Source of the DNA: an uncultured Erysipelotrichaceae bacterium
GTDB lineage: Bacteria > Bacillota_I > Bacilli_A > Erysipelotrichales > Erysipelotrichaceae
Direction: 5' to 3'
Length of the DNA stretch: 39,700 bases
Assembly (NCBI GenBank): GCA_902786245.1
Contig: CADABS010000022.1
Span: forward strand, 1-39,700
Shown here: one piece after another, positions 23,000-39,320 of the stretch
How positions within the stretch are numbered: position 1 is the stretch's first letter
How the letters are laid out: every line of letters starts with the position of its first letter
Position numbers and translations under genes: made by a program
Notes under the pieces: model-generated
Told to the model about the DNA's origin: nothing
Database searches by the model: none
The model's input: the letters and a program-made list of their open reading frames with translations, nothing else

Positions 23000-23026
23000 G
23001 GTGCTCACCCCTTTCTTTCTGAAATC

Positions 23027-23085
23027 ATTATAGGAATGGCACAGCAAAAGTGCAACGCAAACGTTTTCGTTGCATTTGCGTTGCA
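23027..23085 (-). promoter_or_regulatory. Promoter and operator candidate of the AlbA_2 gene
   Basis: Leftwards: -35 TTGCAC (23055-23050), exactly 17 bases, then a perfect -10 TATAAT (23032-23027). Two 11-bp arms, TGCAACGCAAA (23051-23061) and TTTGCGTTGCA (23075-23085), form a perfect inverted repeat that overlaps the -35. A further CGTTGCA copy lies between them (23068-23074). This looks like a multi-site operator. Confidence 0.8.
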
Positions 23086-23132
23086 TTCATTTATGTGTTA
23101 TTAGAGTTTTAATGCAATGGAAAATTTCCCTG

Positions 23133-23834: not shown

Positions 23835-24367
23835 TTTTCCCTCTTCAGATATTTTACAGGCACTTCCTTTGTCAGATATACACCGTTTACGGAAAGAAAG
23901 AATGTATATCCGTCTTTTGCCATTCCTGCCGCATCAATGATATAGACAGCCGGTTTCCCGTGTCTCTGTCCGACTTTGACCGCGGTACCGTAATCCTGTG
24001 AAAGATGTACATACAGCCGTGATTTCGGGATCAGTCCCTGTTTCTCAATGGATGACGTAAACTTCTCTCCCGTCCCGTGATACAGAAGTTCCGGAGGTGT
24101 GCATTCCTGCAGTTCGACATCCACCGGTATGGAATGGCCCTGGTTGGCTCTGATCTTTGTATGATCTTCATTGAAGGAATAGCGCTGTTTCTGATCCTGC
24201 GCGACGATCCTTTCCAGATCATCCATCGTGATATGTTTTGTCTGATTGATTCCATGGATCAATTGTTCCGTATCCGCCCAGCCGTGCTCATCCAGCGTTA
24301 TGCCGATGGCTTCCGGCTTATGGCGCAGAATCAATGAAATGAATTTACTGATTTCCGTGTCTGACAT
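23831..24367 (-). CDS. kptA: RNA 2'-phosphotransferase KptA (Tpt1 family)
   Basis: This 178-residue enzyme uses NAD+ to remove an internal 2'-phosphate from RNA, forming ADP-ribose 1'',2''-cyclic phosphate; family members also ADP-ribosylate nucleic acid ends. All expected motifs are present: SLILRHKPEAIG (catalytic Arg-His), IRANQGHSI, LLYHGTGEKF and YVHLSQDYGTAVKVGQRHGKPAVY split over two blocks, giving the Arg-His-Arg-Arg set. AAGGAG precedes the ATG at 24367. Bacteria lack the tRNA splicing that needs this enzyme in fungi, so its substrate is unclear. Coupling to an AlkZ-related gene is notable. Confidence 0.95.
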   Translation of the reverse strand: MSDTEISKFISLILRHKPEAIGITLDEHGWADTEQLIHGINQTKHITMDDLERIVAQDQKQRYSFNEDHTKIRANQGHSIPVDVELQECTPPELLYHGTGEKFTSSIEKQGLIPKSRLYVHLSQDYGTAVKVGQRHGKPAVYIIDAAGMAKDGYTFFLSVNGVYLTKEVPVKYLKREK

Positions 24368-24504
24368 ACATATCTCCTTACAGCGGCAGATCAATGCTGA
24401 AACAGCTGACGCTGTCCCGGATTGTTTCTGTCAGCTCATATCCCTCTCTTCTTTCCATTTTACATATTATGAATCATCTATGCAGAAGATAAAACAGATC
24501 TATG

Positions 24505-24544: not shown

Positions 24545-25765
24545 TTATTTCTTTGTGACGTCCTTTGTCGTATTGATCTGCAGCAGTTTGTCTGTCAGCT
24601 GGTTCTCAATGCGTCTGAGTTCAAGCTCAGCAGCTTCTCTCTTCTGTCTGCCGTCCTTCTGGATCTCAAGAACTTCATCCAGTGTCGCGATCAGCTGTTC
24701 ATTTGTATGCTGGAGCGTTTCGATATCGACGATGCCGCGTTCGCTTTCCTTGGCTGTTTCGACCGTTGCCTGATGCAGTGTCTCGGCATTCTTCTTGAGC
24801 AGCTCGTTTGTCATGTTCGTGACTTCGCGCTCTGCTTCCATGGCTTCCTTGGAATGCTGGATACCCAGGGACAGAACGATCTGGTTCTTCCACAGCGGGA
24901 TCGTATTGACGATCGTGGACTGGATCTTCTCTGTCATCAGAGTATCGTTGTTCTGTACCAGACGGATCTGCGGAGCCATCTGAATGGATACCTGTCTTGT
25001 CAGTTCCAGGTCATACAGTTTCTTTTCGAAGCGTACGCATGCCTGTTCCAGGTCATTGGCCTTCTGCGCATCTTCCGGCAGTCCGGAAGCCTTTGCCTTT
25101 TCGATCAGCTTCGGCAGATCTTCTTCTCTGACCTTCTGCAGCTTCTTGCGGCCGGCCAGGATGTACATCGACAGTTCCTTTGTGTTCTGGGCATTGCGCT
25201 CATACAGTTCATCCAGCAGAGCGATGTCCTTTAACAGTGTGATCTGATGGTCTTCCAGAATGGCAGAGATCTTGTCGACATTGGCTTCGACCTTGTCATA
25301 CTTTGCCTTGTATTCCGTGACCTTGTTCTTGCCTTTGGAGAACATGCCGCTGAACAGGCCCTTCTTCTCTTCTTCCTCATTGGTTGTTCTGAGTTCAACC
25401 ACCAGGCTGCTCAGCAGTCCGCCGATCTCGCCGAGATCCTTTGTGCGTACATTCTGCAGCGCTGTGTTGGAGAAATCCGTTACCTTCTTCTGAGCGGCTG
25501 CGCCGTACTGCAGAATGGTATTGGACTCTGTGATATCGATCTTTTCCGAGAAATCATTGATCGTTCTGCGCTCTGCTTCACTCAGCTGCAGCTGTTCAAG
25601 CGGATCTGTCGTCCTGGCTTCTTCTTCCTTCTTGCCCTCGAGTTCAGCCAGTTTTGCGGAATTTTCCGCCTGCAGTTCATCCGGTGTCAGCGTCAGTGTA
25701 ATTGTCGGTTCTTCCTGAACCTGTGCCTGTGTTTCAGCCTGTACATTATTGTTTGATTCTGTCAT
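24545..25765 (-). CDS. telA: TelA/KlaA-family protein (toxic anion resistance family)
   Basis: This 406-residue, highly charged, largely helical cytosolic protein belongs to the TelA family (Bacillus YaaN/YceH). The N-terminus is Gln/Glu/Thr-rich and disordered. Family features follow: KVEANVDKISAILEDHQITL, DIALLDELYERN, VSIQMAPQIRLVQNND and VNTIPLWKNQIVLSLGI. The C-terminal third is coiled coil. Homologues are linked to tellurite resistance and envelope stress, mechanism unknown. GAGGAAGG precedes the ATG at 25765. TelA genes are usually paired with xpaC; here the nearest XpaC-like gene is about 11.6 kb away, and the immediate upstream gene is a nucleotidase-like protein. Confidence 0.92.
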   Translation of the reverse strand: MTESNNNVQAETQAQVQEEPTITLTLTPDELQAENSAKLAELEGKKEEEARTTDPLEQLQLSEAERRTINDFSEKIDITESNTILQYGAAAQKKVTDFSNTALQNVRTKDLGEIGGLLSSLVVELRTTNEEEEKKGLFSGMFSKGKNKVTEYKAKYDKVEANVDKISAILEDHQITLLKDIALLDELYERNAQNTKELSMYILAGRKKLQKVREEDLPKLIEKAKASGLPEDAQKANDLEQACVRFEKKLYDLELTRQVSIQMAPQIRLVQNNDTLMTEKIQSTIVNTIPLWKNQIVLSLGIQHSKEAMEAEREVTNMTNELLKKNAETLHQATVETAKESERGIVDIETLQHTNEQLIATLDEVLEIQKDGRQKREAAELELRRIENQLTDKLLQINTTKDVTKK

Positions 25766-25802
25766 TATTTCTACCTTCCTCAATTATGATTTATACGCAC
25801 CT

Positions 25803-25832
25803 AGTATAGCATGAACTGACTGTCTTCAGTTC
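25803..25832 (-). promoter_or_regulatory. Extended -10 promoter and inverted repeat before telA
   Basis: Leftwards an extended -10, TGC-TATACT (25811-25803), lies 37 bases before the telA start. The inverted repeat GAACTGA-N6-TCAGTTC (25813-25832) overlaps the stop codon of the preceding gene and lies in the -35 to -10 spacer. No T-run follows, so an operator is more likely than a terminator. Confidence 0.55.
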
Positions 25833-27706
25833 TTTTCTTTCTTCGGTTTGAGATTCAGCAGCCAGATCAGCAGACGCAGTCCGATGATGGCACCGAGCAC
25901 CGCCGCCGCTGTTTTCCCGTATTCGCGCAGACCGTAGCTGGAAGTATTCCGGAAGAAGCGGATCAGATCAAAGGAAGTATCTGCTTTTCTGGAAAAACTC
26001 CTGTCAAAATCGTCTTTCGCGATTTCCGGCACATTGTTCTGATTCCGTTCTCTTTCCTTCAGATAATCGGCCAGAACGGTCCAGGGTTTCTTCAGGGCAC
26101 CGTTATCATCCGCCAGCCGGTACTGGCTGAAGTCGCCGAGCGTAAAGCCATTGGCAGTACGGGCGGTCACACGCAGATCGCCGCCGGTCGAATCCGCCGC
26201 TGCTTTAAGTCTTCTCAGAATAGATTCCGTCGTAATGACCGGATAGAGTTTGTCTTTTTCGATCGGGGTATAGTACTGCCGGGTCGAGGCGACATATACT
26301 TCTTCGACTCTGTTCAGTTCCCCGCGCTGATCGGAATATACATAATACATATTTCCGAAGTACATCTGGTGTTCTTCTTCGTCCGCAAACATACTGCGGT
26401 CGATTTCACAGGCATCGAGCAGGTCCGAACCCCGCAGATAGACTCTCAGCAGCGGTTCTCCGACGATGCCGAATTCATCCATGCCGTACCCGGCTGCGTG
26501 ATAGATGTCTTCGATCGTGATATTGCCTTTGACGATCCGGCCGGTGACCATTTCTCGGGAAATAATCGAAAGTACCGGATGATTGTCGTATTCTTCCCGC
26601 TCATATGCTTCGCACAGCGATGCCGCAAGCAGTTCCGCCATGGCATTGTTGGAAAGAGAGTCCGTGTCCCGGATATCCGTAAACGTTTTCCGGGAAGAAG
26701 CGATGACCTGACCGTTCGTATAGCCATAGCGGTTCATCATATTCGCCTGCACATTTGCGGCCAGCGAATTGACTTTCTCCCGGATTTCCGGATTTTCGCC
26801 GTATACATCCGGATCGAGTTCATAGAGTCTGTAATCCGTAATCTGCTTGTCCTTCGGTGTGATTTCCATCATACCGAGATACCTGCCGCCTTCTCCTGCC
26901 GAGATGACCGCAGTCTGTTCAACATATGTCACTTCCTCTGCCGGCAGAATGCTGTGTCCGGCAAGCAGTACGTCAATGCCTTTATGTTTCTGGATCAGTT
27001 TCTGTATCTTTTCGAAATTATCGCTGTGATACAGACAGATGATCAGATCGCATCCCTCCAGACCTTCCAGACAGGAAGATACTGCTTCATCTTCATCGGT
27101 TCCCGGACGCAGATCCGTATCGGTCAGACCGAACACACCGATCCTGAATCCGCCTCTTTCGATGATCTTGTACGCTTTGCCGCCTTTGGCAGAGAATACC
27201 GCTTCCGCACCGGTATCGTCATTGAAATCCGGATTGGCACACAGCAGTGTCGGAATCTCTTCCGGAGATGCCTCAACCATCGCCTTGAACATATCCATGC
27301 CATAGGTGAATTCTCTTTCACCCAATGCGGCAGCGTCATATCCCATCATGCCCATCAGCGTCAGCGCCGGTGCTTCTTTTGCATACAGACTGTCATACAC
27401 GGAACCGGTACTGAAATCGCCGCCATCCAGCAGGATTGCATTGTCCGTCCGGTATGTATCGATGGCACTTGCGACTCTGGCAAAGCCGCCGAAAGTCTTG
27501 GTGAGGACTTCCGTCTCCACCGTGCCGTCTTCTTTCTGCGTTTCCTTTGTCACTTCCGTCTTATAGCCGCTGATCGCAGCCTGCAATGACTGCGTAAACA
27601 GGATCTTTACGGAACCGTCTGCTATATCATCCGTCCCTTCTGCTCTGACGGGCATAAACCCCGTCAGTAACAGCAGAGACAGAATAAAAACATGTCTTTT
27701 CTTCAT
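25826..27706 (-). CDS. Membrane-anchored 5'-nucleotidase-family protein, probably inactive
   Basis: This 626-residue exported protein has a signal peptide (cleavage near VRAEG) and a C-terminal membrane helix with basic tail (AVLGAIIGLRLLIWLLNL). Between them lies the 5'-nucleotidase/UshA layout: a metallophosphatase domain (about 30-270) and a C-terminal nucleotidase domain (about 340-540). Several metal ligands are gone. The first motif (family TNDxH) reads TQSLQ, with Ser40 and Gln42 in place of Asp and His. The GNHE motif reads GEREF (129-133). GHxH reads GHSI (250-253). GGD (Asp97) and His227 remain. It is therefore a likely pseudoenzyme or uses another chemistry. GAGGAA precedes the ATG at 27706. 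Confidence 0.88.
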   Translation of the reverse strand: MKKRHVFILSLLLLTGFMPVRAEGTDDIADGSVKILFTQSLQAAISGYKTEVTKETQKEDGTVETEVLTKTFGGFARVASAIDTYRTDNAILLDGGDFSTGSVYDSLYAKEAPALTLMGMMGYDAAALGEREFTYGMDMFKAMVEASPEEIPTLLCANPDFNDDTGAEAVFSAKGGKAYKIIERGGFRIGVFGLTDTDLRPGTDEDEAVSSCLEGLEGCDLIICLYHSDNFEKIQKLIQKHKGIDVLLAGHSILPAEEVTYVEQTAVISAGEGGRYLGMMEITPKDKQITDYRLYELDPDVYGENPEIREKVNSLAANVQANMMNRYGYTNGQVIASSRKTFTDIRDTDSLSNNAMAELLAASLCEAYEREEYDNHPVLSIISREMVTGRIVKGNITIEDIYHAAGYGMDEFGIVGEPLLRVYLRGSDLLDACEIDRSMFADEEEHQMYFGNMYYVYSDQRGELNRVEEVYVASTRQYYTPIEKDKLYPVITTESILRRLKAAADSTGGDLRVTARTANGFTLGDFSQYRLADDNGALKKPWTVLADYLKERERNQNNVPEIAKDDFDRSFSRKADTSFDLIRFFRNTSSYGLREYGKTAAAVLGAIIGLRLLIWLLNLKPKKEKN

Positions 27707-27740
27707 CTCTTGTTTCCTCGCTAATAAGTATAGCAGATGC

Positions 27741-27776
27741 ACAATAAAACAGAGAATCTGTTTCAGGATTCTCTGT
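27741..27776 (-). terminator. Terminator of the sugar importer/glycosidase operon
   Basis: On the minus strand ACAGAGAATC and GATTCTCTGT (arms 27776-27767 and 27758-27749, eight-base loop) form a perfect 10-bp stem followed by TTTATTG. It includes the stop codon of the glycosidase gene and isolates the nucleotidase-like gene, although its T-run is interrupted. Confidence 0.82.
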
Positions 27777-29226
27777 TCCGGAAGTATGTCCGCAGGAAAT
27801 AGGACGGCGTGCAGCTCCATGCATGGCAGAAGCTGTGCACGATCAGGCCGCCGTAGGGAGAGGCAAGCGGGTCTTTCGGGTCATACAGTTCCCAGAATGT
27901 ATCCGCGCCTTTTTCAATCATGCCGTCCCAGTATGCATGCATTTTTTCATAGGCTTTTTCTTTCTGACCGGTATCGATCAGAGCCTGGATGTAATGATGG
28001 ACCGCATAGGGCGACACCATACCTTCCGCTTCCGGCATCTTTTCGATGTGCTCCAGAACGGATGCGCCAAGACGCGGGCTGACTGCACCGGCAAGGATGA
28101 TCCAGATCTGCGACATATATGAGACCTGACGTGACGGGCCGCTGACAAATACCCCTTTGGATTCATCATACAACCGCAGAACCGCCTGTTTCTTCAGCTG
28201 TATCTCACGTTCGAATTCCTCTGCCGGAAGACCCAGCTGCCGGCGTATCTTCACCAGATCGCTCAAACCGTATATGTAAACACCCTGTCCGGCTGCCTGT
28301 TTGTCCAGACGCAGATTCCAGTCGATGAATACATTGCCTGCTTTTTCTGTATCCAGCAGATGATTCTCGTCAAAGCATGTCTTCAGCAGAAGTGCCTGTC
28401 TGGTGCAGACCGGTTCCAGTTCCCGCAGCGTCTCTTCATCGCGGCTGGCACAGTAGTAGTCCCAGAGCGTATTGATGAAGAACAGCGTATAGTCGAACAT
28501 CGTCTGGTCATCGCATTTCGGCTGAGGATACAGGAAGATATTATTGGACAGACGTCCGCCTTCCAGGGTGCTTCCGGCAAAGAGATAGAGACATCTTTTC
28601 ACCAGGTCATAGTTCCGGTAGGTAACATAATCGGTCAGGGCTTCCAGACGCAGGTCGCCCAGCCAGAGCCTCCGGTCGCGCTTGGGTCCGTCTTCAAAGA
28701 CCTCCTGCATGCATTCATGGAGCGTCCGGACGGATACTTCATCCAGCTTCCTGTCTTTTTCATTCAGAGATGCCGGCATCAGCTGACTGTCATCCGCACT
28801 GGATACGGTATCTGCCTTCAGTGATCTGATGGTGACGGCATAGTTATTGGAAACGCTGAGGATACGGATCCGGACATAGCGGAATGCATATCTTCTTTCC
28901 AGCCGGCAGGTACAGGGAAGATCATCAATATGAATGGTCTCCGACTGGACCCAGCTTCTGGAAATCCAGCCATGGTATTCTTCCGGATCATAGTCCAGTT
29001 CTTCCCGGATCTCCGCAAACTGTATGGAAAACAGCAGCGGTGCATCGGGATGTCTGCCCTCGGTACCGAATTCGATATCCAGGTACCCGACGCAGTGGCG
29101 GCCGAAGTCGAAGATACATTCGCCGCCGTCTTTCATCGGCGTTTCATTTCCTGCCAGAAGAACCGCCTGATGATGCAGAACCGGCTTCAGCTGTTCTGCC
29201 TTTGTCAGAAAGATTTCATTGGTCAT
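27763..29226 (-). CDS. GH78-like glycosidase (alpha-L-rhamnosidase-like), intracellular
   Basis: This 487-residue protein has no signal peptide. An N-terminal beta-rich part (about 1-150) is followed by an alpha/alpha-barrel catalytic domain. GH78 hallmarks are EDGPKRDRRLWLGDLR (about 178-193, aligning with the family's D-P-R-rich acid motif) and the C-terminal FWELYDPKDP...HSFCHAWSCTPSYFL region. It is shorter than most GH78 enzymes, which carry extra beta domains. The substrate would be a small rhamnoside or related glycoside delivered by the importer, since the gene closes that operon. The start at 29226 has GGAG five bases upstream. Specificity cannot be fixed from sequence alone. Confidence 0.82.
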   Translation of the reverse strand: MTNEIFLTKAEQLKPVLHHQAVLLAGNETPMKDGGECIFDFGRHCVGYLDIEFGTEGRHPDAPLLFSIQFAEIREELDYDPEEYHGWISRSWVQSETIHIDDLPCTCRLERRYAFRYVRIRILSVSNNYAVTIRSLKADTVSSADDSQLMPASLNEKDRKLDEVSVRTLHECMQEVFEDGPKRDRRLWLGDLRLEALTDYVTYRNYDLVKRCLYLFAGSTLEGGRLSNNIFLYPQPKCDDQTMFDYTLFFINTLWDYYCASRDEETLRELEPVCTRQALLLKTCFDENHLLDTEKAGNVFIDWNLRLDKQAAGQGVYIYGLSDLVKIRRQLGLPAEEFEREIQLKKQAVLRLYDESKGVFVSGPSRQVSYMSQIWIILAGAVSPRLGASVLEHIEKMPEAEGMVSPYAVHHYIQALIDTGQKEKAYEKMHAYWDGMIEKGADTFWELYDPKDPLASPYGGLIVHSFCHAWSCTPSYFLRTYFRNRES

Positions 29227-29243
29227 AGACTCCGGTCCCCGTT

Positions 29244-30197
29244 TCAGTGTCTGAAGATCTGTTTCAGTCTGCCTTCATTGTTCAGATAGATCAGGAAGGA
29301 TACCATCAGGACAGCAGAGATGATCTGCTGGTAGGAAGATGATACATTCAGACGGACATAGATCAGGGAGATGACAGCCATGGACAGAGCCCCGAGCAGA
29401 TAGCCGAGCTTGTCATTGGTGAACCGGCCGATGAATCCGCCGACGAACATCGGCAGGAATGCCAGAAACATGACGGATATCGAACCGAAATTCAATGCCA
29501 TTGTGATCGAACCGTTATTGGTTGCGGAAATGAATCCCTGGGCACCCATCAGCCCGCCGGCGATGACATAGCACAGGACCGCATTCTTCACCTCATTGAT
29601 ACCGGTGCTGACCGATACCTTCTGACCGCTCAGAAGCGCCTTGTACTCATAGCCGAAGCGGGTATGGTCATAGACGATGACCATAAACACAAGCGCTGTC
29701 AGAATGACAAGAAGATAATTCGGGATCGTACCGAATCCGAGAATCTCCGCATTGCCGGCCAGGGTCACGCCGTGTCCGCCGGTCAGCGTGAAGGCAAAGC
29801 CTTCATAGAACAGCGCCACCGCCAGAGATACGATAATCGGCGGAAGCTTGACGGTGACATACAGCAGTCCGGACAGAAGTCCGAGCAGACAGCCGAAGAA
29901 GACGGAAAGAACCAGCATCGCCAGCGGACCGGCACCTGTCTTCAGAGTGATCATGGAACTGATCACGGAAGAAAGCAGGGCGATCGATCCGATGGAGAAG
30001 TCGAATCTTCCGGAATTCAGGTTGATCGACAGGGCAAACGTCACCAATACGGTATTGGCTGCCGCCCGGACAAAGGTCGTCCAGCTCAGCAGGGAATCAA
30101 ACAGGACAATACCCTGTGCGCTGCTGATCAGCAGACATGCCGCAAATACAATCACCGGTATGGCAAGCGTACCTGCCAGTTTCTTTCCGTTTTTCAT
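29244..30197 (-). CDS. Sugar ABC importer permease, RbsC family (second permease)
   Basis: This 317-residue membrane protein has about nine hydrophobic segments. RbsC-type features are ALSINLNSGRFDFSIGSIAL (about 57-76), where family members read NLSVGS-like, and the internal TRFGYEYKALLSGQ coupling segment. AGGTGG precedes the ATG at 30197. A second, distinct permease lies upstream in the operon, so the channel is probably a heterodimer, unlike classic RbsC homodimers. It is followed 17 bases later by the glycosidase gene. Confidence 0.9.
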   Translation of the reverse strand: MKNGKKLAGTLAIPVIVFAACLLISSAQGIVLFDSLLSWTTFVRAAANTVLVTFALSINLNSGRFDFSIGSIALLSSVISSMITLKTGAGPLAMLVLSVFFGCLLGLLSGLLYVTVKLPPIIVSLAVALFYEGFAFTLTGGHGVTLAGNAEILGFGTIPNYLLVILTALVFMVIVYDHTRFGYEYKALLSGQKVSVSTGINEVKNAVLCYVIAGGLMGAQGFISATNNGSITMALNFGSISVMFLAFLPMFVGGFIGRFTNDKLGYLLGALSMAVISLIYVRLNVSSSYQQIISAVLMVSFLIYLNNEGRLKQIFRH

Positions 30198-30220
30198 AAG
30201 CCACCTCGCAGTTTAAAGTC

Positions 30221-31417
30221 TTATTTCTGAATTTCCTCGAATGAATATGCCGCAACGAATTTTGCGAAATCGTCATAGGATGCACCGATCAGTGTATCCA
30301 GCATTTCCTTGGTATATGCAGGTTCTGTTGTGGAAGAATCGACTTCATAGTATTTCTTTGCGTCTTCGGCATTGTCCGCAACCCAGTAGCCCTGCGACAG
30401 AGCCAGTGCGTTTCCGTCATTGTCTCTGACCGGCTTGCCGTATACTGCGGACAGGGTTGCCGCAAAGACCGGTCCGATCGAAGCTGAGAACTTGCCTGCC
30501 AGATAATTCAGTGTTCCTTTTTCCATCAGGCCGACGGAATCTGCTGTATAGCAGTCGATATCACCGAGCATCTTTCCTTCCGGCTTGAATCCGGCGAATG
30601 CCACCTGACCGGAGCCTACTGCCAGCAGAACTTCTACATTGGGATCATTGGCAACAGCTGTCAGTTTTCCATACCATGCGTCATCAAAGTCATAGCCTGC
30701 AACGACACCGTTGACCTCAACACTGCCGATCTTGCCGGGATTGACATTGCCGCCTTCGCCCATGATCTTTCCGACGATGGCCATGCCTTCTGCGCCTTCA
30801 TATGTACCCTTGCCTGCTTCGCACATCGCTGCCAGCATACCGGCTGCCCGGTAGATATGCATTTCCGTGTAGTATACGGAAGCGCCTGTGAACATGCCGA
30901 ACTTTGTATATCCCTGATCCAGGAAGTGCTTTGCCATGTCATAGCCGGCCTGGTATTCTGCCGCAAGATCCGGTCCGATGGCACCGACATAGTGCGCATA
31001 GCCCTTGTATTTTTCATACTGTTCATCGGTCAGTGTTCCGGTTGCGACGGCGTAGTAGATGCCCTCGGATTCGCATTTTTCAATCTGGGCAGGTCTGTCT
31101 GCGGAAGCGAAGGAAATGATCGCTTGGCAGTTGTTGGCAATGAAGTTGTCGATTGCACTCTGCTCGGCAGAGGCATCTTTTAGTTCATCGGAATACATGA
31201 ATTCGACGTTGTAGACAGACTGGATGTACTTTTCGTAGTATGCCTTGAACGCAAGCGCTTCGGCACTGGTCGTATCGGAGACAAGCACTCCGATTTTAAC
31301 GGTCTTCTGTGACGGATCATCGGAAGAACCGCCTCCCGATTCCTGTGAACATGCGGTCAGTGTGAAGACCATCAGAAGTGATAAACACAATGCAAAGAAT
31401 TTCTTAACTGATTTCAT
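30221..31417 (-). CDS. Sugar ABC importer binding lipoprotein
   Basis: This 398-residue extracellular lipoprotein has a signal peptide with lipobox LTAC and a short Gly/Ser/Asp linker, then a two-lobed periplasmic-binding-protein fold (KIGVLVSDTTSAEALAFKA, QAIISFASADRPAQIEKCE). A tail conserved in many sugar-binding proteins is not obvious. AAGGAGGGAACG precedes the ATG at 31417. It lies between the two permease genes. Aromatic residues in the presumed cleft (VGAIGPD, TGASVYYTEMHIY, QGYWVADN) fit a carbohydrate ligand, which fits the glycosidase in the operon. Confidence 0.9.
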   Translation of the reverse strand: MKSVKKFFALCLSLLMVFTLTACSQESGGGSSDDPSQKTVKIGVLVSDTTSAEALAFKAYYEKYIQSVYNVEFMYSDELKDASAEQSAIDNFIANNCQAIISFASADRPAQIEKCESEGIYYAVATGTLTDEQYEKYKGYAHYVGAIGPDLAAEYQAGYDMAKHFLDQGYTKFGMFTGASVYYTEMHIYRAAGMLAAMCEAGKGTYEGAEGMAIVGKIMGEGGNVNPGKIGSVEVNGVVAGYDFDDAWYGKLTAVANDPNVEVLLAVGSGQVAFAGFKPEGKMLGDIDCYTADSVGLMEKGTLNYLAGKFSASIGPVFAATLSAVYGKPVRDNDGNALALSQGYWVADNAEDAKKYYEVDSSTTEPAYTKEMLDTLIGASYDDFAKFVAAYSFEEIQK

Positions 31418-31447
31418 CGTTCCCTCCTTATTCTTTTTTGTGTCTGA

Positions 31448-32404
31448 TTATCTTGGCAGTATTGTTTTTCTGTTATTCAGCATGGAAACAAATACCACGA
31501 GTATGAATATTGCGGCTTTGACCATCTGTCCGATGCCGGAGTTCAGGTTCAGCATTAACATGATTTGCGACAGCAGGGTCATGGACAGAGCACCGATGGC
31601 AGCGGAATAGATCCTGGATCTTGCCCCGCCGGATACCGGCATGCCGCCGAAGACGATCGATATGATGACATCCATACCGATACTGCCGGCTGTATTTCTC
31701 GATAATGTCGGGGCATAGGTAATTGTCAGGAATGCCCCCAGACCTACTCCCAGACCCGCCATGACGAAGCCGATGACGGACAGTTTCTTTGCGTTCAGTC
31801 CGCTCAGCTGTGCACACAGCGGATTGCCGCCGACGAATTTCTCCTGCCGTCCGAGTTTCATGAAATTGAATGTCAGTACGCACAGACCGAAGAACAGCAG
31901 GAACACCAGCAGCTTGAATCCCACCGTATTCAGCTTCGAAACCGCTTCGGCCGGAATCTGGATGACATCGCCGGTGCCGTTGGCCTTGATCAGTACCAGC
32001 ACCAGCGCATTCAGCAGGGAAAGCATGGCAATGGTTGTGACAAATACCGGCAGATTGAATACCGATGCGAGAAGCGAACTGGTCAGCGAGATCAGTACGG
32101 CACAGCCGACGCATACCCCCAGCATCACCGCCACCGATCCGGTCCGGTTATAGGCCATGGCCCCGACCAAGGCGCTGACGCACATCGATGCGCCCAGGGA
32201 AATATCGAAGGCACCGAGGGTATAGATATACACTGCACCGGTCGCCACGACCATCGTGATGATGGATTGGTTGAGTATGTTCTTCATGCTGTAGGGAATA
32301 TTGATGTCCTTGATCAAAGCGAAGACAAGAAACAGGATCCCGAGCAGGATCATGCCTGCCAGCGGCGCGGCACTGAGAAGTTTTTCTCTGAGTTCTTTTT
32401 TCAT
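31448..32404 (-). CDS. Sugar ABC importer permease, RbsC family (first permease)
   Basis: This 318-residue permease has about nine membrane segments. The family pattern AVYIYTLGAFDISLGASMCV (about 57-76) resembles the conserved GGIDLSVGS region of RbsC proteins; FVGGNPLCAQLSGLNAKKL is the cytoplasmic coupling segment. AGGAG precedes the ATG at 32404, and only eight bases separate it from the ATPase gene upstream. It pairs with the second RbsC-type permease in the operon. Confidence 0.9.
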   Translation of the reverse strand: MKKELREKLLSAAPLAGMILLGILFLVFALIKDINIPYSMKNILNQSIITMVVATGAVYIYTLGAFDISLGASMCVSALVGAMAYNRTGSVAVMLGVCVGCAVLISLTSSLLASVFNLPVFVTTIAMLSLLNALVLVLIKANGTGDVIQIPAEAVSKLNTVGFKLLVFLLFFGLCVLTFNFMKLGRQEKFVGGNPLCAQLSGLNAKKLSVIGFVMAGLGVGLGAFLTITYAPTLSRNTAGSIGMDVIISIVFGGMPVSGGARSRIYSAAIGALSMTLLSQIMLMLNLNSGIGQMVKAAIFILVVFVSMLNNRKTILPR

Positions 32405-32412
32405 ATGCGCTC

Positions 32413-33903
32413 CTAGATCATATATTCAATGACATCTGCCTCAGACAGCTGCCTGCTGCGGAACAGTTCCTTCTGCAGTTTTCCGTCTTTCATGACCAGC
32501 AACCGGTCGGACATGCCGATCAGCTCCGTCATTTCCTCGGAAATCAGGATGATCGATTTTCCTTCCTGCTTCATCCGGTACATCAGCTGATACATCGCCT
32601 GCTTGACACCGATATCGACGCCTCTGGTCGGACAGTCGAGAATCAGGATCGATGAATCCCGTCCGGTCCATTTTCCGAAGGCGGCTTTCTGCTTGTTGCC
32701 GCCAGAGAGGGTGCTGACATACTGGTTTCTGTCATTGCACTTGATCCGCAGGTTTTTGATCTGCGCATCGACATAGCTGTTTTCTCTGGAAGGCAGAATG
32801 AATGCGTTATGCACGGCAATCTTATCCAGTCCGGCAATTGCGATATTGTCTTTGATCGATGCCTCCAGGCACAGCGATTCCGTATCCCTGTCCTTGGCGA
32901 CATAGCCGATGCCTTCCTTCATGGCTTCTGCTTCATTGCGGATCTGTCTGCCATGGACCGTAAAGCTGCCGCTTTCCGCTTTCTCGTTTCCAAAGAGAAC
33001 TTTGCCCAGGGTATGCATGCCGCAGTGCGACAGTCCGCCGATGCCGAGGATCTCTCCGGCATGGAGTTCAAACGAGAAGTCAGAAAGCTGATCGGTATGA
33101 TTGAGATGCTCTGCCGCAAGAACGACTTCCGAAGATACTTCCCCGTCATAGTCATCGCGGTAGTAGCTGCCCTGCAGTTCTCTTCCGATCATCGCTGCCT
33201 TGATGGCGCCTTCCTCAAATTCTTCATGTTCGAATGTCCGGATGATCTTTCCGTCCCGCAGTACCGTCAGACGGTCGCATTTCTCCATGATTTCATCGAG
33301 ATCATGGGAGATGAAGATGACCGTTTTTCCTTCCTTCCGCATGGTATTCATGATGCCGTAGATAATATCTCTGCCCTTCTGTGACAGAGCAGTCGTTGTT
33401 TCATCGACAACCAGCACTTCCGGATCCTTTGCCATGACCCGGGCGATTTCCAGCAGCTTCCGGTCCTGGAAGTCCAGCATCCCGGTCATCATTTCCGCTC
33501 TGATATGGCCTGCCCCGATCGCGTCCAGAGCTGCCTGCGCATCCCGGTTCATCTTCTTCCGGTTCACGAACAGTCCGGACACATACTCCTGCGTCTCTCC
33601 CAGGAAGATATTCTCGGCTGCGCTGATGCCCGGTACCGTACCGTTTTCCTGCACGATCATGCCGACACCGCGCTTCAGTGCATCATTCATGGAAACCGGA
33701 TGCCAGGGTTCTCCTTTGAAGAACATTTCTCCGCTGCTGCATGTCTGCATCCCCGCATAGATCGATGTCGCCGTTGATTTTCCCGATCCGTTTTCACCGA
33801 TCAGTCCGAGCACTTCACCGCTCTGTGCACTGAAAGATACGTCGTTCAGGGCAATTGTCGGCCCGAAACTTTTATGCATATTTCTGATTTCAAGCATTTC
33901 CAT
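32413..33903 (-). CDS. Sugar ABC importer ATPase, RbsA-like tandem ATPase
   Basis: This 496-residue protein has two ATPase domains. Domain 1: Walker A GENGSGKS (about 40), degenerate signature LDFQDRK, intact Walker B VLVVDETTTALS. Domain 2: no usable Walker A (GLSHCGMHTLGK), intact signature LSGGNKQK, and Walker B LILDCPTRGVD in which Cys424 replaces the catalytic Glu. Only the composite site of Walker motifs 1 and signature 2 can be active. Loss of Walker A in the second half is normal for RbsA; the Cys is not. The ATG at 33903 follows GAGGGTG; ATG 33897 is an alternative. It heads a five-gene operon controlled by the divergent AraC protein. Confidence 0.92.
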   Translation of the reverse strand: MEMLEIRNMHKSFGPTIALNDVSFSAQSGEVLGLIGENGSGKSTATSIYAGMQTCSSGEMFFKGEPWHPVSMNDALKRGVGMIVQENGTVPGISAAENIFLGETQEYVSGLFVNRKKMNRDAQAALDAIGAGHIRAEMMTGMLDFQDRKLLEIARVMAKDPEVLVVDETTTALSQKGRDIIYGIMNTMRKEGKTVIFISHDLDEIMEKCDRLTVLRDGKIIRTFEHEEFEEGAIKAAMIGRELQGSYYRDDYDGEVSSEVVLAAEHLNHTDQLSDFSFELHAGEILGIGGLSHCGMHTLGKVLFGNEKAESGSFTVHGRQIRNEAEAMKEGIGYVAKDRDTESLCLEASIKDNIAIAGLDKIAVHNAFILPSRENSYVDAQIKNLRIKCNDRNQYVSTLSGGNKQKAAFGKWTGRDSSILILDCPTRGVDIGVKQAMYQLMYRMKQEGKSIILISEEMTELIGMSDRLLVMKDGKLQKELFRSRQLSEADVIEYMI

Positions 33904-33927
33904 AAGCACCCTCAGATTGATTACATC

Positions 33928-34009
33928 TTTATACTAGCAAGGATAAAAATATTAAAAATTGTAAATTGTTACCGCTTACATTGACTGCATTTGATGAAAA
34001 TATTAAATT
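33928..34009. promoter_or_regulatory. Divergent control region: cre and paired direct repeats
   Basis: A perfect cre, TGTTACCGCTTACA (33967-33980), fits TGWNANCGNTNWCA at all positions. It is flanked by two copies of AAAATATTAAA (33946-33956 and 33997-34007) spaced 51 bases, five helical turns. Leftwards a weak promoter, TTTAAT-N17-TATAAA (33956-33928), serves the importer operon. Rightwards TTGACT-N17-TAAATT (33981-34009) serves the AraC gene. One repeat covers each promoter element, which suits AraC sites that activate the operon and restrain the regulator. CcpA would repress. Confidence 0.7.
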
Positions 34010-34048
34010 AATTATAGATTATTGACTTTATTTAATATTGAGGTGAAT

Positions 34049-35104
34049 ATGAACGAGAAAGAGCTGCTGCAGGAATTATATGCACTGAATGAATCGGAAC
34101 GGTTCTACCGCTCCTACCAGCAGGCAAAAAAAGATCCGGCTTCCTTCAGCCGGTTTCTGCATTCCCTGGATATCCGGGAATGCGTACAGAAACATATTCT
34201 GATTCCGGAGTTCAAGGAAACCATGCCTCCGTCCATGCGCGATGAATATTTCTATTCCGATACGGAAGCAGGCATGGTCGTGCAGAAGCACAACTGCTAC
34301 TCACCGGATTTCGAGCATTTCCATACGTATTTTGAAGCATTCTATGTCTATGACGGCACCTGCGATCATGCATTGGGCGGAAAAAAAGAAACCATGCATA
34401 TCGGTGATTTCTGCATTATTCCGCCGGGCGTCTCGCACCGGATCTCCGTGCAGAACCAGAGTATTGTCATCGTCATGATCCTCTCTGCCCAGGTCATCGA
34501 GAATACCTTCCGGAATCCGACGTTTTATAAGAACAATCTTCTTTCGGAATTCTTTCTCAAGCATCTGCGCTTTTCCAGCGAAGATGACAGTCTTGTGTTC
34601 CATACCGGCAATGACCAGGATCTCAGGAATATACTGATCCAGATGATGCTGGAGAGCAGAAACAAATACCAGGAATACGATGCCATCCTCTCTGCATATT
34701 TCTCTCTGTTTTTCGGCAAGCTGCTGCGCCATTATGAACATACGATCGACGCACCTGACCAGGACAGCCGCAGAAATGCGGCAGCGGCCGATATTGTCGC
34801 CTATATCCATGAACACCATACGGATATCACTCTGCCGCAGCTGGCGGAAAAATACCATTACACCCCGGAATACACATCCCGCTATATCAAAGAAGTCACG
34901 GGCCGTACATTCTCCCAGATCCTGATCGATGCCCGCATGAAACATGCAGTATCACTGCTGCAGTCGACCGGTCTGCCGGTTTCGGAAGTCGCCTACCAGG
35001 TCGGCTATGAGAATACGGAGAATTTCATCCGCAGGTTCAAGAAGACATACAATAAAACACCGGACCGCTACCGCAGGGAACTGCTCATGCGTCTGATCCG
35101 GTGA
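34049..35104 (+). CDS. AraC-family transcriptional regulator
   Basis: This 351-residue protein has an N-terminal cupin-type sensing domain (about 85-160; PDFEHFHTYFEAFYVYDG, GDFCIIPPGVSHRI). It ends with two helix-turn-helix motifs (about 250-350; DITLPQLAEKYHYTPEYTSR and LPVSEVAYQVGYENTENFIR). AGGTG precedes the ATG at 34049; a longer in-frame start is unlikely because it would use a region with promoter-like sequence. It is divergent from the sugar importer operon and should respond to the imported sugar or glycoside. The repeated AAAATATTAAA element in between is a good candidate site. Confidence 0.93.
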   Translation: MNEKELLQELYALNESERFYRSYQQAKKDPASFSRFLHSLDIRECVQKHILIPEFKETMPPSMRDEYFYSDTEAGMVVQKHNCYSPDFEHFHTYFEAFYVYDGTCDHALGGKKETMHIGDFCIIPPGVSHRISVQNQSIVIVMILSAQVIENTFRNPTFYKNNLLSEFFLKHLRFSSEDDSLVFHTGNDQDLRNILIQMMLESRNKYQEYDAILSAYFSLFFGKLLRHYEHTIDAPDQDSRRNAAAADIVAYIHEHHTDITLPQLAEKYHYTPEYTSRYIKEVTGRTFSQILIDARMKHAVSLLQSTGLPVSEVAYQVGYENTENFIRRFKKTYNKTPDRYRRELLMRLIR

Positions 35105-35199: not shown

Positions 35200-37362
35200 T
35201 CAGTGATTGCCTGCCATTTTGAGCAGATCATCCAGGGTCGGAGACTTCTTTTCCTCTTTCGGCTTGATCTTGACGGTAAAGTCAAAGTCTTCCAGCAGAA
35301 GTGCGCTCATATCCGCTTCCGGATCCTTGACCAGACGCTCGGACTGACGCAGAATCGCATCTTCGACGACGTTTCTTGCCAGACGTCCGTTGCCTGCCTC
35401 TGCCGCATTGATCGACTGTACTTCATTGAAGTAAGCTTCGAGCTTCTCATTGACTGCTTCGTCAATGACATAGCCCTTGGACTTCGCCTGCAGCGCTGCG
35501 ATCTTGCGGAGTTCTTCGCCGGTATAATCCGGGAAGTGGATCAGATTCGGGAATCTGGATTTCAGACCGCTGTTGGATTCCAGGAAGGAAGCCATTTCCT
35601 TCGAGTATCCGGCCAGGATGACGATCAGGTCATCACGGTTGTCTTCCATTGCCTTGACCAGTGTATCGATTGCCTCCAGACCGAAGGAATCATCTTTTCC
35701 TCTGTAGAGGGAATAAGCTTCATCGATGAACAGAACGCCGCCGATGGCCGATTTGATGACCGACATCGTTAACGGTGCCGTCTGGCCGACATACTGGGCG
35801 ACAAGATCTGCTCTGGTCACTTCCACCAGCTGGCCCTGGGACAGAGCGCCGATGGCTTTCATATAGCGGGAAATCAGACGGGCAATCGTCGTTTTGCCGG
35901 TACCCGGATTTCCGGTAAAGATCATATGCTTGGAGACTTCTGCCGTCTTCATGCCCTGTTCGCGTCTTCTCTGCTGCATTGCGATATGCGACTGCAGGGA
36001 ACGGATATAGTTCTTGACCATATCCAGACCGACGATCTCATCGAGTTCCGCATTGACCGCATCGATTTCCTCCTGCGAGTTCTTCGAACGGGACAGACGG
36101 ACTTCCATATGATCGCAGGCTGCCATCGGCACATCATTGACGACTTTCAGAACGACCGGATCATTGTCATTTCTGGCTTCCTTCAGTGCCATCTCACTCA
36201 GGGATACATAGAAATCATAGAACTGTGCCGTAATGGAATAGGCACCCTGGGTCTTGTCGAAATGGCGGAATACCCAGTCTTTGATTTCTTCCGGAACGGT
36301 CAGACTGATCTTCAGGTTTTCTCTGACTCTGGACGCAAGCGAAGCGGACTGGTTTTCGATGATCGCTTTGACGCTTTCCTCATCAAGCTGTTTCAGGGTT
36401 ACGGTATCGAGCACATGATACATGAAATCGGCACCGAAATAGTCCTGTACCTTGGAAGGCTTCTGGGACGTGATGAATACGAGATACTTGCCTTCGGCGG
36501 AAAGCGAATCCACGCTCTCTTTGACAAGTCCGGTCTGGTTTTCGACCAGGACGCCTTTGGTCAGTACATATCTCTTGTTCAGTACGACTCTGCCATCTGT
36601 CGCAAGGCTGTCGACCATGCGCAGGAATGCCGGGAATCCGTTTTCGAAATGCTCGAAGCAGATGATGGAACCTTCCCCGGTCAGTGCTTCATACAGATCC
36701 TGCAGGAAGATGGATTCCTGTGCACCGCTGGTGTATCTGCTCATATCGATGGTATAGACCGCATCGCTGGCAAATACTTTCTTTTCGTACAGAGAACGGG
36801 CCATCTGGGTGACTGCTTCATGGCGTCCCGATCCGCTCGGGCCGCTGATCAGAATGACATTCTTCGGCTTGCCGGATTCCGTACCCATGACATAGGGGCG
36901 GCGGAAAGCAATGATCATCTGACGCAGTGCGTCTTTCTGACCCATGATTTTGGAAATCAGGACGTTGTATACTTCTTCAAACAGGTTTTCGGATACCGTG
37001 GCAGGTTCATGGAATTCTTCCTTCGGGAAGATATTCTCCTGGGTTCCGTAGTCCCGCTTAATGTCTTTTTCCAGCTGTTCCATATCCATCAGAGACGGAT
37101 CGATACTGTGATCAAGATCTTTCATCTGCGAAGAAAGCTCTTCGAGATCTTTCTGCTGTTTCTTAAGGATCTTGTTGAGTTCCTCCATGGCAAGATCAGC
37201 GCTCTTCATCGTGTTTCTGCGCTCTTTTTCCTGCTTTTCATTCGCATTGATCACCAGTTCGATTTCCTGGGATGCGTCAGTGGACTCATAGGTACGGTTT
37301 TTATTCAGCACCTCATTCCAGAGGCGTTCTTTTTCTTCTCTTCTGCGGTCATCCCTTGACAT
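35200..37362 (-). CDS. Two-module AAA+ ATPase with a degenerate first module and CbbX/SpoVK-like second module
   Basis: This 720-residue cytosolic protein has a charged coiled-coil N-terminus (about 40-105). Module 1 (about 130-400) resembles Clp-type AAA+ but has GPSGSGRH (Arg in place of the Walker A Lys, about 171-178) and ICFEHFEN in place of Walker B, so it is probably inactive. Module 2 (about 440-690) is CbbX/SpoVK-like and intact: GNPGTGKTT (about 484), VLFIDEAYS (about 541), LAGY sensor and SGLKSRFPN with an arginine finger (about 600). GGGGGA precedes the ATG at 37362, which starts one base after the stop of the XpaC-like gene. It likely remodels a partner encoded beside it. Function unknown. 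Confidence 0.88.
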   Translation of the reverse strand: MSRDDRRREEKERLWNEVLNKNRTYESTDASQEIELVINANEKQEKERRNTMKSADLAMEELNKILKKQQKDLEELSSQMKDLDHSIDPSLMDMEQLEKDIKRDYGTQENIFPKEEFHEPATVSENLFEEVYNVLISKIMGQKDALRQMIIAFRRPYVMGTESGKPKNVILISGPSGSGRHEAVTQMARSLYEKKVFASDAVYTIDMSRYTSGAQESIFLQDLYEALTGEGSIICFEHFENGFPAFLRMVDSLATDGRVVLNKRYVLTKGVLVENQTGLVKESVDSLSAEGKYLVFITSQKPSKVQDYFGADFMYHVLDTVTLKQLDEESVKAIIENQSASLASRVRENLKISLTVPEEIKDWVFRHFDKTQGAYSITAQFYDFYVSLSEMALKEARNDNDPVVLKVVNDVPMAACDHMEVRLSRSKNSQEEIDAVNAELDEIVGLDMVKNYIRSLQSHIAMQQRRREQGMKTAEVSKHMIFTGNPGTGKTTIARLISRYMKAIGALSQGQLVEVTRADLVAQYVGQTAPLTMSVIKSAIGGVLFIDEAYSLYRGKDDSFGLEAIDTLVKAMEDNRDDLIVILAGYSKEMASFLESNSGLKSRFPNLIHFPDYTGEELRKIAALQAKSKGYVIDEAVNEKLEAYFNEVQSINAAEAGNGRLARNVVEDAILRQSERLVKDPEADMSALLLEDFDFTVKIKPKEEKKSPTLDDLLKMAGNH

Positions 37363-37363
37363 C

Positions 37364-38359
37364 TTACATTCCCCCGTTTCTTGTGGACATCTGTCCGTCG
37401 GAAGTCAGTCCGTCTTTCTGCAGAACTGCCTCCAGAGTCGAAATATCCGCCGAGAGATTGATGAAGTCCTGATCGGTCAGACTGGAGATGATCGTCTTCA
37501 TCGCATCATTGATCAGCGAGATCGTACGGTTCAGCTTCTGCTTTGTCTCTTCATATGCCGGATCGGTCTGGGCTGCCTGCAGATTGTCATACTGCGTCAG
37601 GATCCTGACCAGGATCGGCAGATAGTAGTCATACAGTTTCTTCAGCTTATCGGCAGATCCCGGGAATCTGTCCTGCAGAATCTGGATCTGCTTCAGAAGC
37701 GCGCATGTCTCATAGAGACCGTTGGAAATATTCTCATCCGGAATGTCATCATTCAGCTGGTTGATCTGATTCATGAAATCTTCCGCTGTCTTCTGTCTCG
37801 GTGCTTCCTGCTGCTTCGGCGCTTCTTCTTTGCGCTGCGCTGTTTCCGTCGCCGTGACATCGATGACTTCATCCGCCCGGTTCTGTCTGGACATATTCAG
37901 CAGCTCCGAGAGGATTTCATTATAGGAATCCGGATATCTGCGGCCGAAATCATTCAGCGAGCAGATATAGGTATTGTCCCGGTATACATCCAGGCTGGCC
38001 AGGGATGCATATCTCTGTCCGTGAATGCGCAGATCGATATTGGAACCAATCGGCAGCGAGCGTCTGGTTCTGTACCAGCTGCGCAGGTAGACATTGATCT
38101 TCGCCATGTCCGCAGCGGAATACTTGGAAGAAGAACCGGCCCGGTAGTAATTGCCGGTACGGCTGTATCCGCTGTTATAGCCCTGTGTGCGTCCTTCTTC
38201 GCGCTTTGAAGCGCCGACTGCCGCAAACATGACCGCCATGACGACGGCGAGAATCATCAGTAAAGGAATAAATGCCCCGACGCCTCCTGAAAACATCAGG
38301 AAAATCAGGATCCACCATATATAGTTATTGCCGTTTCCGCGGCCGCGATATCTGCTCAT
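37364..38359 (-). CDS. Membrane-anchored protein with XpaC-like C-terminal domain
   Basis: This 331-residue protein has a basic N-terminus (SRYRGRGNG), two adjacent membrane helices (about 12-50), a Gly/Ser/Tyr-rich linker, a small folded part (about 85-150; YRTRRSLPIGSNIDLRIHGQ) and a Gln/Lys/Pro-rich hinge. The C-terminal helical domain (about 215-325) resembles XpaC (5-bromo-4-chloroindolyl phosphate hydrolysis family): LKKLYDYYLPILVRILTQYD and LSADISTLEAVLQKDGL. XpaC is usually paired with TelA; here TelA is elsewhere in the window. AAGGTGG precedes the ATG at 38359. It overlaps no gene but abuts the AAA+ ATPase gene, suggesting a complex. Confidence 0.75.
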   Translation of the reverse strand: MSRYRGRGNGNNYIWWILIFLMFSGGVGAFIPLLMILAVVMAVMFAAVGASKREEGRTQGYNSGYSRTGNYYRAGSSSKYSAADMAKINVYLRSWYRTRRSLPIGSNIDLRIHGQRYASLASLDVYRDNTYICSLNDFGRRYPDSYNEILSELLNMSRQNRADEVIDVTATETAQRKEEAPKQQEAPRQKTAEDFMNQINQLNDDIPDENISNGLYETCALLKQIQILQDRFPGSADKLKKLYDYYLPILVRILTQYDNLQAAQTDPAYEETKQKLNRTISLINDAMKTIISSLTDQDFINLSADISTLEAVLQKDGLTSDGQMSTRNGGM

Positions 38360-38385
38360 TTGCACCACCTTCGTAATCAAAGAAG

Positions 38386-38394
38386 ATTATAGCA
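38386..38394 (-). promoter_or_regulatory. Extended -10 promoter of the XpaC-like/AAA+ operon
   Basis: Leftwards, TGC-TATAAT (38394-38386) is a perfect extended -10. No good -35 is present at 17 bases, which an extended -10 can tolerate. It lies 27 bases before the XpaC-like start codon, so the two-gene unit has its own promoter after the terminator at 38436-38461. Confidence 0.7.
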
Positions 38395-38435
38395 TACTCC
38401 TGCTTTTCATTGTACAGGTACAGAAACAGCGCATA

Positions 38436-38461
38436 AGAAAAAGGAACCCGCAGGTTCCCTT
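38436..38461 (-). terminator. Terminator after the gene of unknown function
   Basis: Leftwards, GGGAACC-TGCG-GGTTCC (about 9 bp counting a G-U and two A-T pairs) is followed by TTTTTC. It ends the transcript of the gene that stops at 38466, five bases away. Confidence 0.85.
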
Positions 38462-38465
38462 GTGA

Positions 38466-39320
38466 TTATGCATCGGCAGGTCCTTCTTCCGCAGGAGTTT
38501 CTTCCGGCATTGTGCCGTCTGTTCTCCACATCTCGGAATAGCTCAGGAAGGTGATTTCATCCGCATTGAGCTTGGCCTGGTTTCTCTGTCTCTTGACATT
38601 GCCTTCATGGACGGATGTCAGGATGTTCTTGTTGACCATGTACTGTACATACAGAACCTTTTTCAGCAGGAACCAGTTGATGACATATTCATAAATCGCA
38701 TCGGATCTGTCTTCCAGTGCAGCCAGGGCTGCCGGTGCGTTTTCCTTGAGTTCATTCGCTGCTTTGATGGCGGCTGCCTTGAGCTCGTCATAGTTTCTGA
38801 AGAAATGGCTGTCAAGCTTTCTCTGCAGAGCGCCGGCCCGCTGTGTGAACAGACCGTCGAATGCACGCATGATCAGGCTCGGATCCGAGAGACTGACTGC
38901 GACGATTTCATTCTTGCAGTCAATGAATTCGCTGCCCGGTTCTGTCATGCAGTAGTACAGACCCTTCGCTTTGATGAATCCGTAATCCGCTGTCGGTTCG
39001 ATCAGAAGAGCTCTGTCTTCGCCTTCTTTGGAAATATAGATAATGTAAGGGTAGATCAGCGGTTTGCCGGCCAGCTTGAACACGTCTTTATAGCGGATGA
39101 TCTGATTCGAGATTGCATCCTTGTTCACTTCGCTGCGCAGACCGATGCAAATTTTAGTTTCCGGTTCTTTTTCAAGAATTGCAGTTAAGGTGTCACGGAG
39201 AGCAGGATCAATTACAACGTCTTCCATGTTAAGGTAATCTTCCAGATATCCGTTGAATACACAATCCTCACCGCCCCTGCGGTTGTCTGTTTTCTGATCA
39301 AGAATGCTGCAGATAGCCAT
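38466..39320 (-). CDS. Soluble protein of unknown function, upstream of the XpaC-like/AAA+ pair
   Basis: This 284-residue protein lacks a signal peptide or membrane helix. I do not recognise it. Visible parts are an acidic N-terminus with cysteines (CSILDQK, GGEDCVFNGYLEDYL), an alpha/beta part (about 40-165; PLIYPYIIYISKEG, ALLIEPTADYGF), and a helical C-terminal half (about 170-260) with a highly acidic Pro/Glu tail (PEETPAEEGPAD). GGAGG precedes the ATG at 39320. It is separated from the XpaC-like gene by a terminator and a promoter, so the two are adjacent and same-strand but not strictly co-transcribed. Shared function is inferred from order only. Confidence 0.85.
   Translation of the reverse strand: MAICSILDQKTDNRRGGEDCVFNGYLEDYLNMEDVVIDPALRDTLTAILEKEPETKICIGLRSEVNKDAISNQIIRYKDVFKLAGKPLIYPYIIYISKEGEDRALLIEPTADYGFIKAKGLYYCMTEPGSEFIDCKNEIVAVSLSDPSLIMRAFDGLFTQRAGALQRKLDSHFFRNYDELKAAAIKAANELKENAPAALAALEDRSDAIYEYVINWFLLKKVLYVQYMVNKNILTSVHEGNVKRQRNQAKLNADEITFLSYSEMWRTDGTMPEETPAEEGPADA

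Follow-up and report, generated by a model that had tools for sequence, protein, structure and literature searches.

An XpaC-like membrane protein gene adjoins the gene of a chimeric AAA+ protein that is inherited with TelA in Erysipelotrichales

Genes at the locus

The window, which is the whole stretch of DNA that was analysed, is one complete contig (39.7 kb) out of the 102 in its assembly, and the named relatives nearest to it are rumen Erysipelotrichaceae ('Solobacterium' MAGs and Lactimicrobium massiliense). The three same-strand open reading frames reported in the sequence-only reading were confirmed, namely U (39320-38466), an XpaC-like gene (38359-37364) and an AAA+ gene (37362-35200). 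These genes, a TelA gene downstream and the other features of the locus are listed below.

38466..39320, minus strand: U, 284 aa, a conserved family; a neighbour, outside the set
38440..38461, minus strand: terminator-like hairpin and T-run in the interval that separates U from the XpaC gene
37364..38359, minus strand: XpaC-like membrane protein, 331 aa counted from ATG
38189..38323, minus strand: membrane helices predicted at the N-terminus of the XpaC-like protein, aa 13-57 (AlphaFold model and sequence)
37871..38116, minus strand: XpaC-like protein, ordered extra alpha/beta domain at aa 82-163 (AlphaFold pLDDT about 90)
37415..37792, minus strand: XpaC (PF10112) helical domain (about aa 190-315)
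35200..37362, minus strand: AAA+ protein, 720 aa, with an N-terminal coiled region, a ClpB/ClpC-type module predicted to be dead and a CbbX/SpoVK-type module predicted to be active
36103..37029, minus strand: AAA module 1 (aa 112-420), ClpB/ClpC/Hsp104 NBD2-type, degenerate
35287..36057, minus strand: AAA module 2 (aa 436-692), CbbX/SpoVK/EccA-type with AAA_lid_6
27763..35104, no single strand: variable cargo between AAA and TelA, comprising a rhamnosidase (GH78), a sugar ABC transporter and a divergent AraC regulator
25826..27820, minus strand: 5'-nucleotidase-like protein with a signal-like N-terminus and a C-terminal membrane helix, encoded immediately before TelA
24545..25783, minus strand: TelA (PF05816), 412 aa ORF, downstream of AAA

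A single base separates the stop codon of the XpaC-like gene (37366-37364) from the ATG of the AAA+ gene (from 37362), as had been noticed earlier. The mechanical ORF call starts the XpaC-like gene at a TTG (38380); judging from the sequence, the start is most likely the ATG at 38359, which lies behind GGTGG as a possible ribosome-binding site. On the 5' side of the gene we read TGCTATAAT, an extended -10-like element, which is preceded by the hairpin with a T-run that follows U. Because of this arrangement, U is probably a separate transcript. In the window's genus, addAB, U and XpaC-AAA form three adjoining loci.

The TelA protein matched PF05816 over profile positions 1-331 of 332 (E 2.7e-123; 411.8 bits against a cut-off of 30). 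Its gene lies 9.4 kb downstream of AAA on the same strand with variable cargo between, and since an opposite-strand gene also intervenes over this distance, AAA and TelA of the window are not one transcript. The distance from AAA module 1 to TelA ranged from 1.2 to 14.9 kb within the genus, and the contents of the gap differed between genomes; the rhamnosidase/ABC/AraC block was absent or different in relatives and was therefore regarded as cargo rather than part of the system. The 5'-nucleotidase-like gene lies 42 bp before TelA; L180 and L190, from two further genomes of the genus, have the two genes arranged likewise, and the product is at most an accessory. Directly behind TelA on the same strand (21725-24394) are genes for a KptA/Tpt1 RNA 2'-phosphotransferase, an AlkZ-related protein and a Schlafen/AlbA_2 protein. 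The genus also has a shorter TelA paralogue of about 312 aa (G000:C7:32241-32924, L265), seen in more than 20 genomes, whose match to the TelA profile is limited to about positions 2-240.

Domains of the AAA+ and XpaC-like proteins

An AAA profile of 28 members was searched against PDB sequences with hmmsearch. Module 2 matched the CbbX structure 3syk (E 9e-81) and EccA1 (E 3e-78), and it matched the SpoVK family TIGR02881 with an E value of 4.8e-90, in strong agreement with the CbbX/SpoVK-type motor proposed in the sequence-only reading. That description had missed the ClpB/ClpC type of module 1, which matched the NBD2 of Hsp104, ClpC and ClpB with E values down to 5e-18 and, together with the ClpB D2-small domain, did so over the whole domain. 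The AAA+ protein missed the equivalog cut-offs of SpoVK (301 of 423 bits), CbbX (240 of 459) and EccA (247 of 467), and none of the curated families scanned covered its full length. No protein in the ten genomes tested exceeded the SpoVK cut-off. In nine of these genomes this AAA+ protein was the only strong CbbX/SpoVK-type protein, and G058 had an additional tandem CbbX protein. PADLOC returned generic AAA matches only.

Alignment of residues across 28 relatives revealed that the Walker A motif of module 1 reads GPSGSGRH, with the P-loop lysine absent in most members, and that its Walker B motif is FEH, as in the window protein, or FEN, with the acids lost. The pore-loop segment is missing and the arginine-finger position is not an arginine, so module 1 does not qualify as an Hsp100/Clp unfoldase by its P-loop lysine, Walker B acids, GYVG pore loop or arginine finger. 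Module 2 contains Walker A (GNPGTGKTT), Walker B (FIDEAY), a pore loop (YVGQTA), an arginine finger (SRF) and sensor 2 (GNGRxxRN), all in invariant or nearly invariant columns, and with AAA_lid_6 it possesses every feature by which a CbbX-type module was recognised. Because module 1 has lost its catalytic and pore residues and module 2 keeps its motifs, the alignment showed the AAA+ protein to be a pseudo-Hsp100/CbbX chimera, in which a ClpB/ClpC-type module, predicted to be catalytically dead, is fused to a predicted intact CbbX/SpoVK-type module. This is an unusual AAA+ architecture.

The chimera resembles CbbX (the red-type Rubisco activase), SpoVK and EccA in the lid_6, Walker A/B, arginine finger and sensor 2 of module 2, but it falls below each of their equivalog cut-offs and carries the fused Hsp100-type module, and its pore loop is YVGQTA whereas that of CbbX is YIGHTA. 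No Rubisco or ESX genes were seen in the loci read. Unlike ClpB, ClpC and Hsp104, it has a single module of this type, lacking the catalytic and pore residues, and not a two-domain Hsp100. A remote homologue in Anaerovibrio (L070 9761-12562 and L071 9692-12490) measures 932-933 aa and combines two CbbX modules with one that is pseudo-Hsp100-like; two small membrane proteins are encoded behind it, and it has no XpaC or TelA neighbour. Loci of Butyrivibrio and others with CbbX only were set aside, as they had no strong module 1 and a phmmer scan found no XpaC-like gene.

The XpaC-like protein of the window matched PF10112 at an E value of 5e-4 and 20.5 bits, under the gathering cut-off of 29.8, and 24 of 34 aligned relatives matched this family at E<=0.01 (best E 2.6e-16). 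The XpaC-like domain assigned earlier is thus weak in the window protein by itself and is upheld through its relatives. The AlphaFold model had a mean pLDDT of 74.5 and matched no PDB structure, and neither PADLOC nor PHROGs returned a match to this protein or to U. Other genera encode a long XpaC upstream of AAA. Some of their loci have another XpaC gene on the downstream side, and the short product of this second gene does not have the extra alpha/beta domain. In most genera outside the window's genus, a small charged protein with no Pfam match, x175 (L062 9456-9983; L166, L172 and others), is placed between the long XpaC and AAA; x175 is absent from the window's genus.

Gene order and inheritance in Erysipelotrichales

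Gene order was surveyed in 244 Erysipelotrichales genomes of 72 genera, among which strong AAA module 1 was found in 124, TelA in 137 and XpaC in 131. AAA was accompanied by TelA in 122 of its 124 genomes (Fisher p 1.6e-49, uncorrected for shared ancestry) and by XpaC likewise in 122 of 124 (Fisher p 1e-55, uncorrected for shared ancestry). XpaC and TelA occurred together in 126 of the 244 genomes, and only 16 genomes had one without the other. The XpaC and AAA genes lay -80 to +25 bp apart in about 90 locus records, a count that includes some genomes twice; this adjacency is not chance, and it bears out the earlier proposal that an XpaC-like membrane protein is partnered with a CbbX/SpoVK-type motor. 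All 57 same-contig AAA-TelA pairs were co-oriented, with TelA downstream by 1.0-14.9 kb.

TelA came directly after AAA in six loci (L038, L041, L152, L158, L160 and L174) and after AAA-XpaC in others (L061-L066, L072, L167, L169 and L172). In relatives TelA was followed by x178 and then by a TPM-domain protein, and the order AAA-XpaC-TelA-x178-TPM was consecutive in four sampled genera (g9, g47, g54 and g60). Counted per genus, XpaC was adjacent in 16 of the 24 genera with AAA and TelA was downstream in 13. In six AAA genera (g18, g20, g39, g40, g43 and g51) the AAA locus read stood alone with XpaC/TelA elsewhere in the genome, and a second g43 genome does have TelA downstream of AAA. The lone-AAA genomes that were inspected keep TelA elsewhere, four of them as XpaC-TelA-x178-TPM (L255-L258). 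The AAA tree indicated mostly vertical inheritance, and XpaC adjacency was clustered by clade (4 changes, against 8.2 in shuffles). By its gene order and distribution, the AAA gene was shown to be coupled to that of a predicted membrane-anchored XpaC-like protein and inherited with TelA.

In a class-wide sample of 296 genomes from 165 genera, module 1 was confined to Erysipelotrichales, and the XpaC-TelA pairs of the class outside this order (L247 and L248) had no adjoining AAA. Since XpaC-TelA pairs elsewhere in the class occur without AAA, the motor looks like an addition, and because AAA was found only in this order within the class sample, XpaC/TelA must work elsewhere without it. These results suggest that in Erysipelotrichales a dedicated molecular motor serves XpaC and the coiled-coil protein TelA, two 'tellurite resistance' proteins that are little understood.

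The survey did not bear out the inclusion of the 284-residue protein U, which the sequence-only reading had counted as the third member; of that three-gene set the XpaC-AAA pairing was conserved, and TelA was the partner that had been overlooked. U occurred in 132 of the 244 genomes, 43 of them without AAA, and within the family its association with AAA was weak (Fisher p 0.006). It lay directly upstream of XpaC in 50 of the 81 genomes in which both were located, and away from XpaC its steadier neighbour was a divergent AddB-AddA pair. U was rejected as a member on account of these AAA-less genomes, the frequent addAB neighbours and the terminator-like hairpin before XpaC. Neighbour sets sharing only one of the genes, taken beforehand as evidence against the set, were thus found for U and not for XpaC with AAA.

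The AlphaFold model of U was confident (pLDDT 89) and gave no Foldseek match at E<=0.001. With VIA-align the best Z was 7, to helical bundles, and the N-terminal half reached a Z of about 5 to nucleases of the Can2/Cdn1/VC1899 type, ranges that may reflect only a common arrangement; a conserved D-(D/E)xK pattern, as expected of the PD-(D/E)XK nuclease fold, was not seen in the family alignment. The U family is conserved and single-copy in Erysipelotrichaceae and often lies beside divergent addAB (L207, L208, L212, L214, L219, L221-L223 and L226), with an exonuclease III-like gene also beside it in L207. Perhaps U is a DNA-repair-linked protein of some kind.

A candidate membrane-tethered remodelase and its alternatives

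Pairs of a membrane XpaC-like protein and TelA in fixed order are also found in B. subtilis (xpaC-yaaN) and Listeria (lmo1966-lmo1967), but the locus described here has a longer XpaC with the extra alpha/beta domain and a dedicated AAA+ motor, and in the window TelA lies 9.4 kb from the XpaC-AAA pair. The xpaC-yaaN operon belongs to the core sigma-W regulon of B. subtilis (PMC3498285), and in E. faecium xpaC rises when liaR is mutated (PMC10269926). In work cited by PMC12791056, mutation of lmo1967 (TelA) in Listeria raised susceptibility to nisin 4-fold and to tellurite 2-fold; PMC12791056 calls the mechanism of TelA unknown. Because these XpaC/TelA relatives of Bacillus, Listeria and Enterococcus belong to envelope-stress regulons, the candidate envelope-stress role proposed earlier is supported (PMC3498285, PMC10269926, PMC12791056). 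Our literature searches found no description of XpaC-TelA with a dedicated AAA+ motor, of which there may be an earlier mention, and no text joining TelA with CbbX and tellurite.

On balance, we favor the view that the locus is the Erysipelotrichales form of the XpaC-TelA envelope-stress module with its own AAA+ motor, which would be a membrane-tethered remodelase acting on XpaC/TelA assemblies. We infer the tethering, the clients and the stress role of the motor. XpaC would sit in the membrane and anchor the motor by way of its additional alpha/beta domain, the dead Hsp100 module of the motor, or both. In CbbX relatives, threading remodels clients; the CbbX module, whose characterised relatives are hexameric threading ATPases, would pull on XpaC, whose helical domain had earlier been named a candidate client, and/or on TelA, and sub-membrane XpaC/TelA assemblies may be recycled or remodelled under envelope stress caused by cationic peptides, wall antibiotics or oxyanions. 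U would have no part in this mechanism. TelA and XpaC occur widely among Gram-positive bacteria and have been linked to tolerance of agents that act on the envelope, nisin among them. A lineage that pairs them with a dedicated ATPase offers a direct handle, as a motor mutant locked with ATP can hold on to its substrate and so reveal what the two proteins assemble into.

TerD was absent from all ten genomes tested, including that of the window, and so was PspA/Vipp1 (PF04012; bacterial ESCRT-III), for which the ten included G000 and which was present in 9 of 14 control genomes. Therefore, the set is not accounted for by the classical Ter or Psp machinery. By analogy only, with no homology claimed, a proposed AAA+ motor on a membrane-associated helical/coiled-coil assembly recalls Vps4 and ESCRT-III. 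A membrane-remodelling cycle in which the pseudo-Hsp100/CbbX motor disassembles a TelA/XpaC sub-membrane scaffold is a speculative and rather unlikely extension of this analogy; if true, scaffold and motor in these PspA-lacking bacteria would fill a role comparable to that which ESCRT-III and Vps4 have elsewhere.

The AAA+ protein might instead be a SpoVK/CbbX-like housekeeping remodelase with a client elsewhere, for example an enzyme of metabolism or a protein involved in sporulation or division, in which case XpaC would be only a tether and TelA an independent neighbour. The closest relatives of module 2, SpoVK (E 4.8e-90) and CbbX, and the separation of AAA from TelA and XpaC in some genera fit this explanation, but TelA tracks AAA in 122 of 124 genomes, always downstream where they share a contig, and all three equivalog cut-offs were missed, and we consider it improbable. 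Less probable still is a Ter-like system that excludes phage or xenobiotics. In such a system, a sub-membrane TelA structure would block entry and AAA would arm or disarm it. Ter systems have reportedly been worked on by Anantharaman and colleagues (2012). TelA has been described (PMC7824862) as a sub-membrane component of Ter systems, where it may keep out phage or xenobiotics, and the variable cargo in the TelA-AAA gap and the KptA, AlkZ-related and Schlafen genes behind the window TelA are in keeping with such a role; against it stand the absence of TerD from the ten genomes, the lack of PADLOC matches beyond generic AAA ones, and the near-universal vertical presence in whole genera, unlike patchy defence islands. 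It is very unlikely that the protein is a Clp-like unfoldase that feeds a protease through its Hsp100-type module with XpaC as an adaptor for membrane proteins. Module 1 matches the NBD2 structures of ClpB, ClpC and ClpE (E down to 5e-18), which would fit such an unfoldase, but the Walker lysine, the acids of Walker B, the pore loop and the arginine finger are all missing from it, and CbbX and EccA1, the nearest structural relatives of the active module, are to our knowledge not protease partners.

A second, remote XpaC-like helical protein of 186 aa, which matched the profile at E 4e-9 but had no PF10112 call, was observed at L113 932-3162 (G000:C70), where its same-strand neighbours are an ECF sigma factor-like gene and a membrane anti-sigma-like gene.
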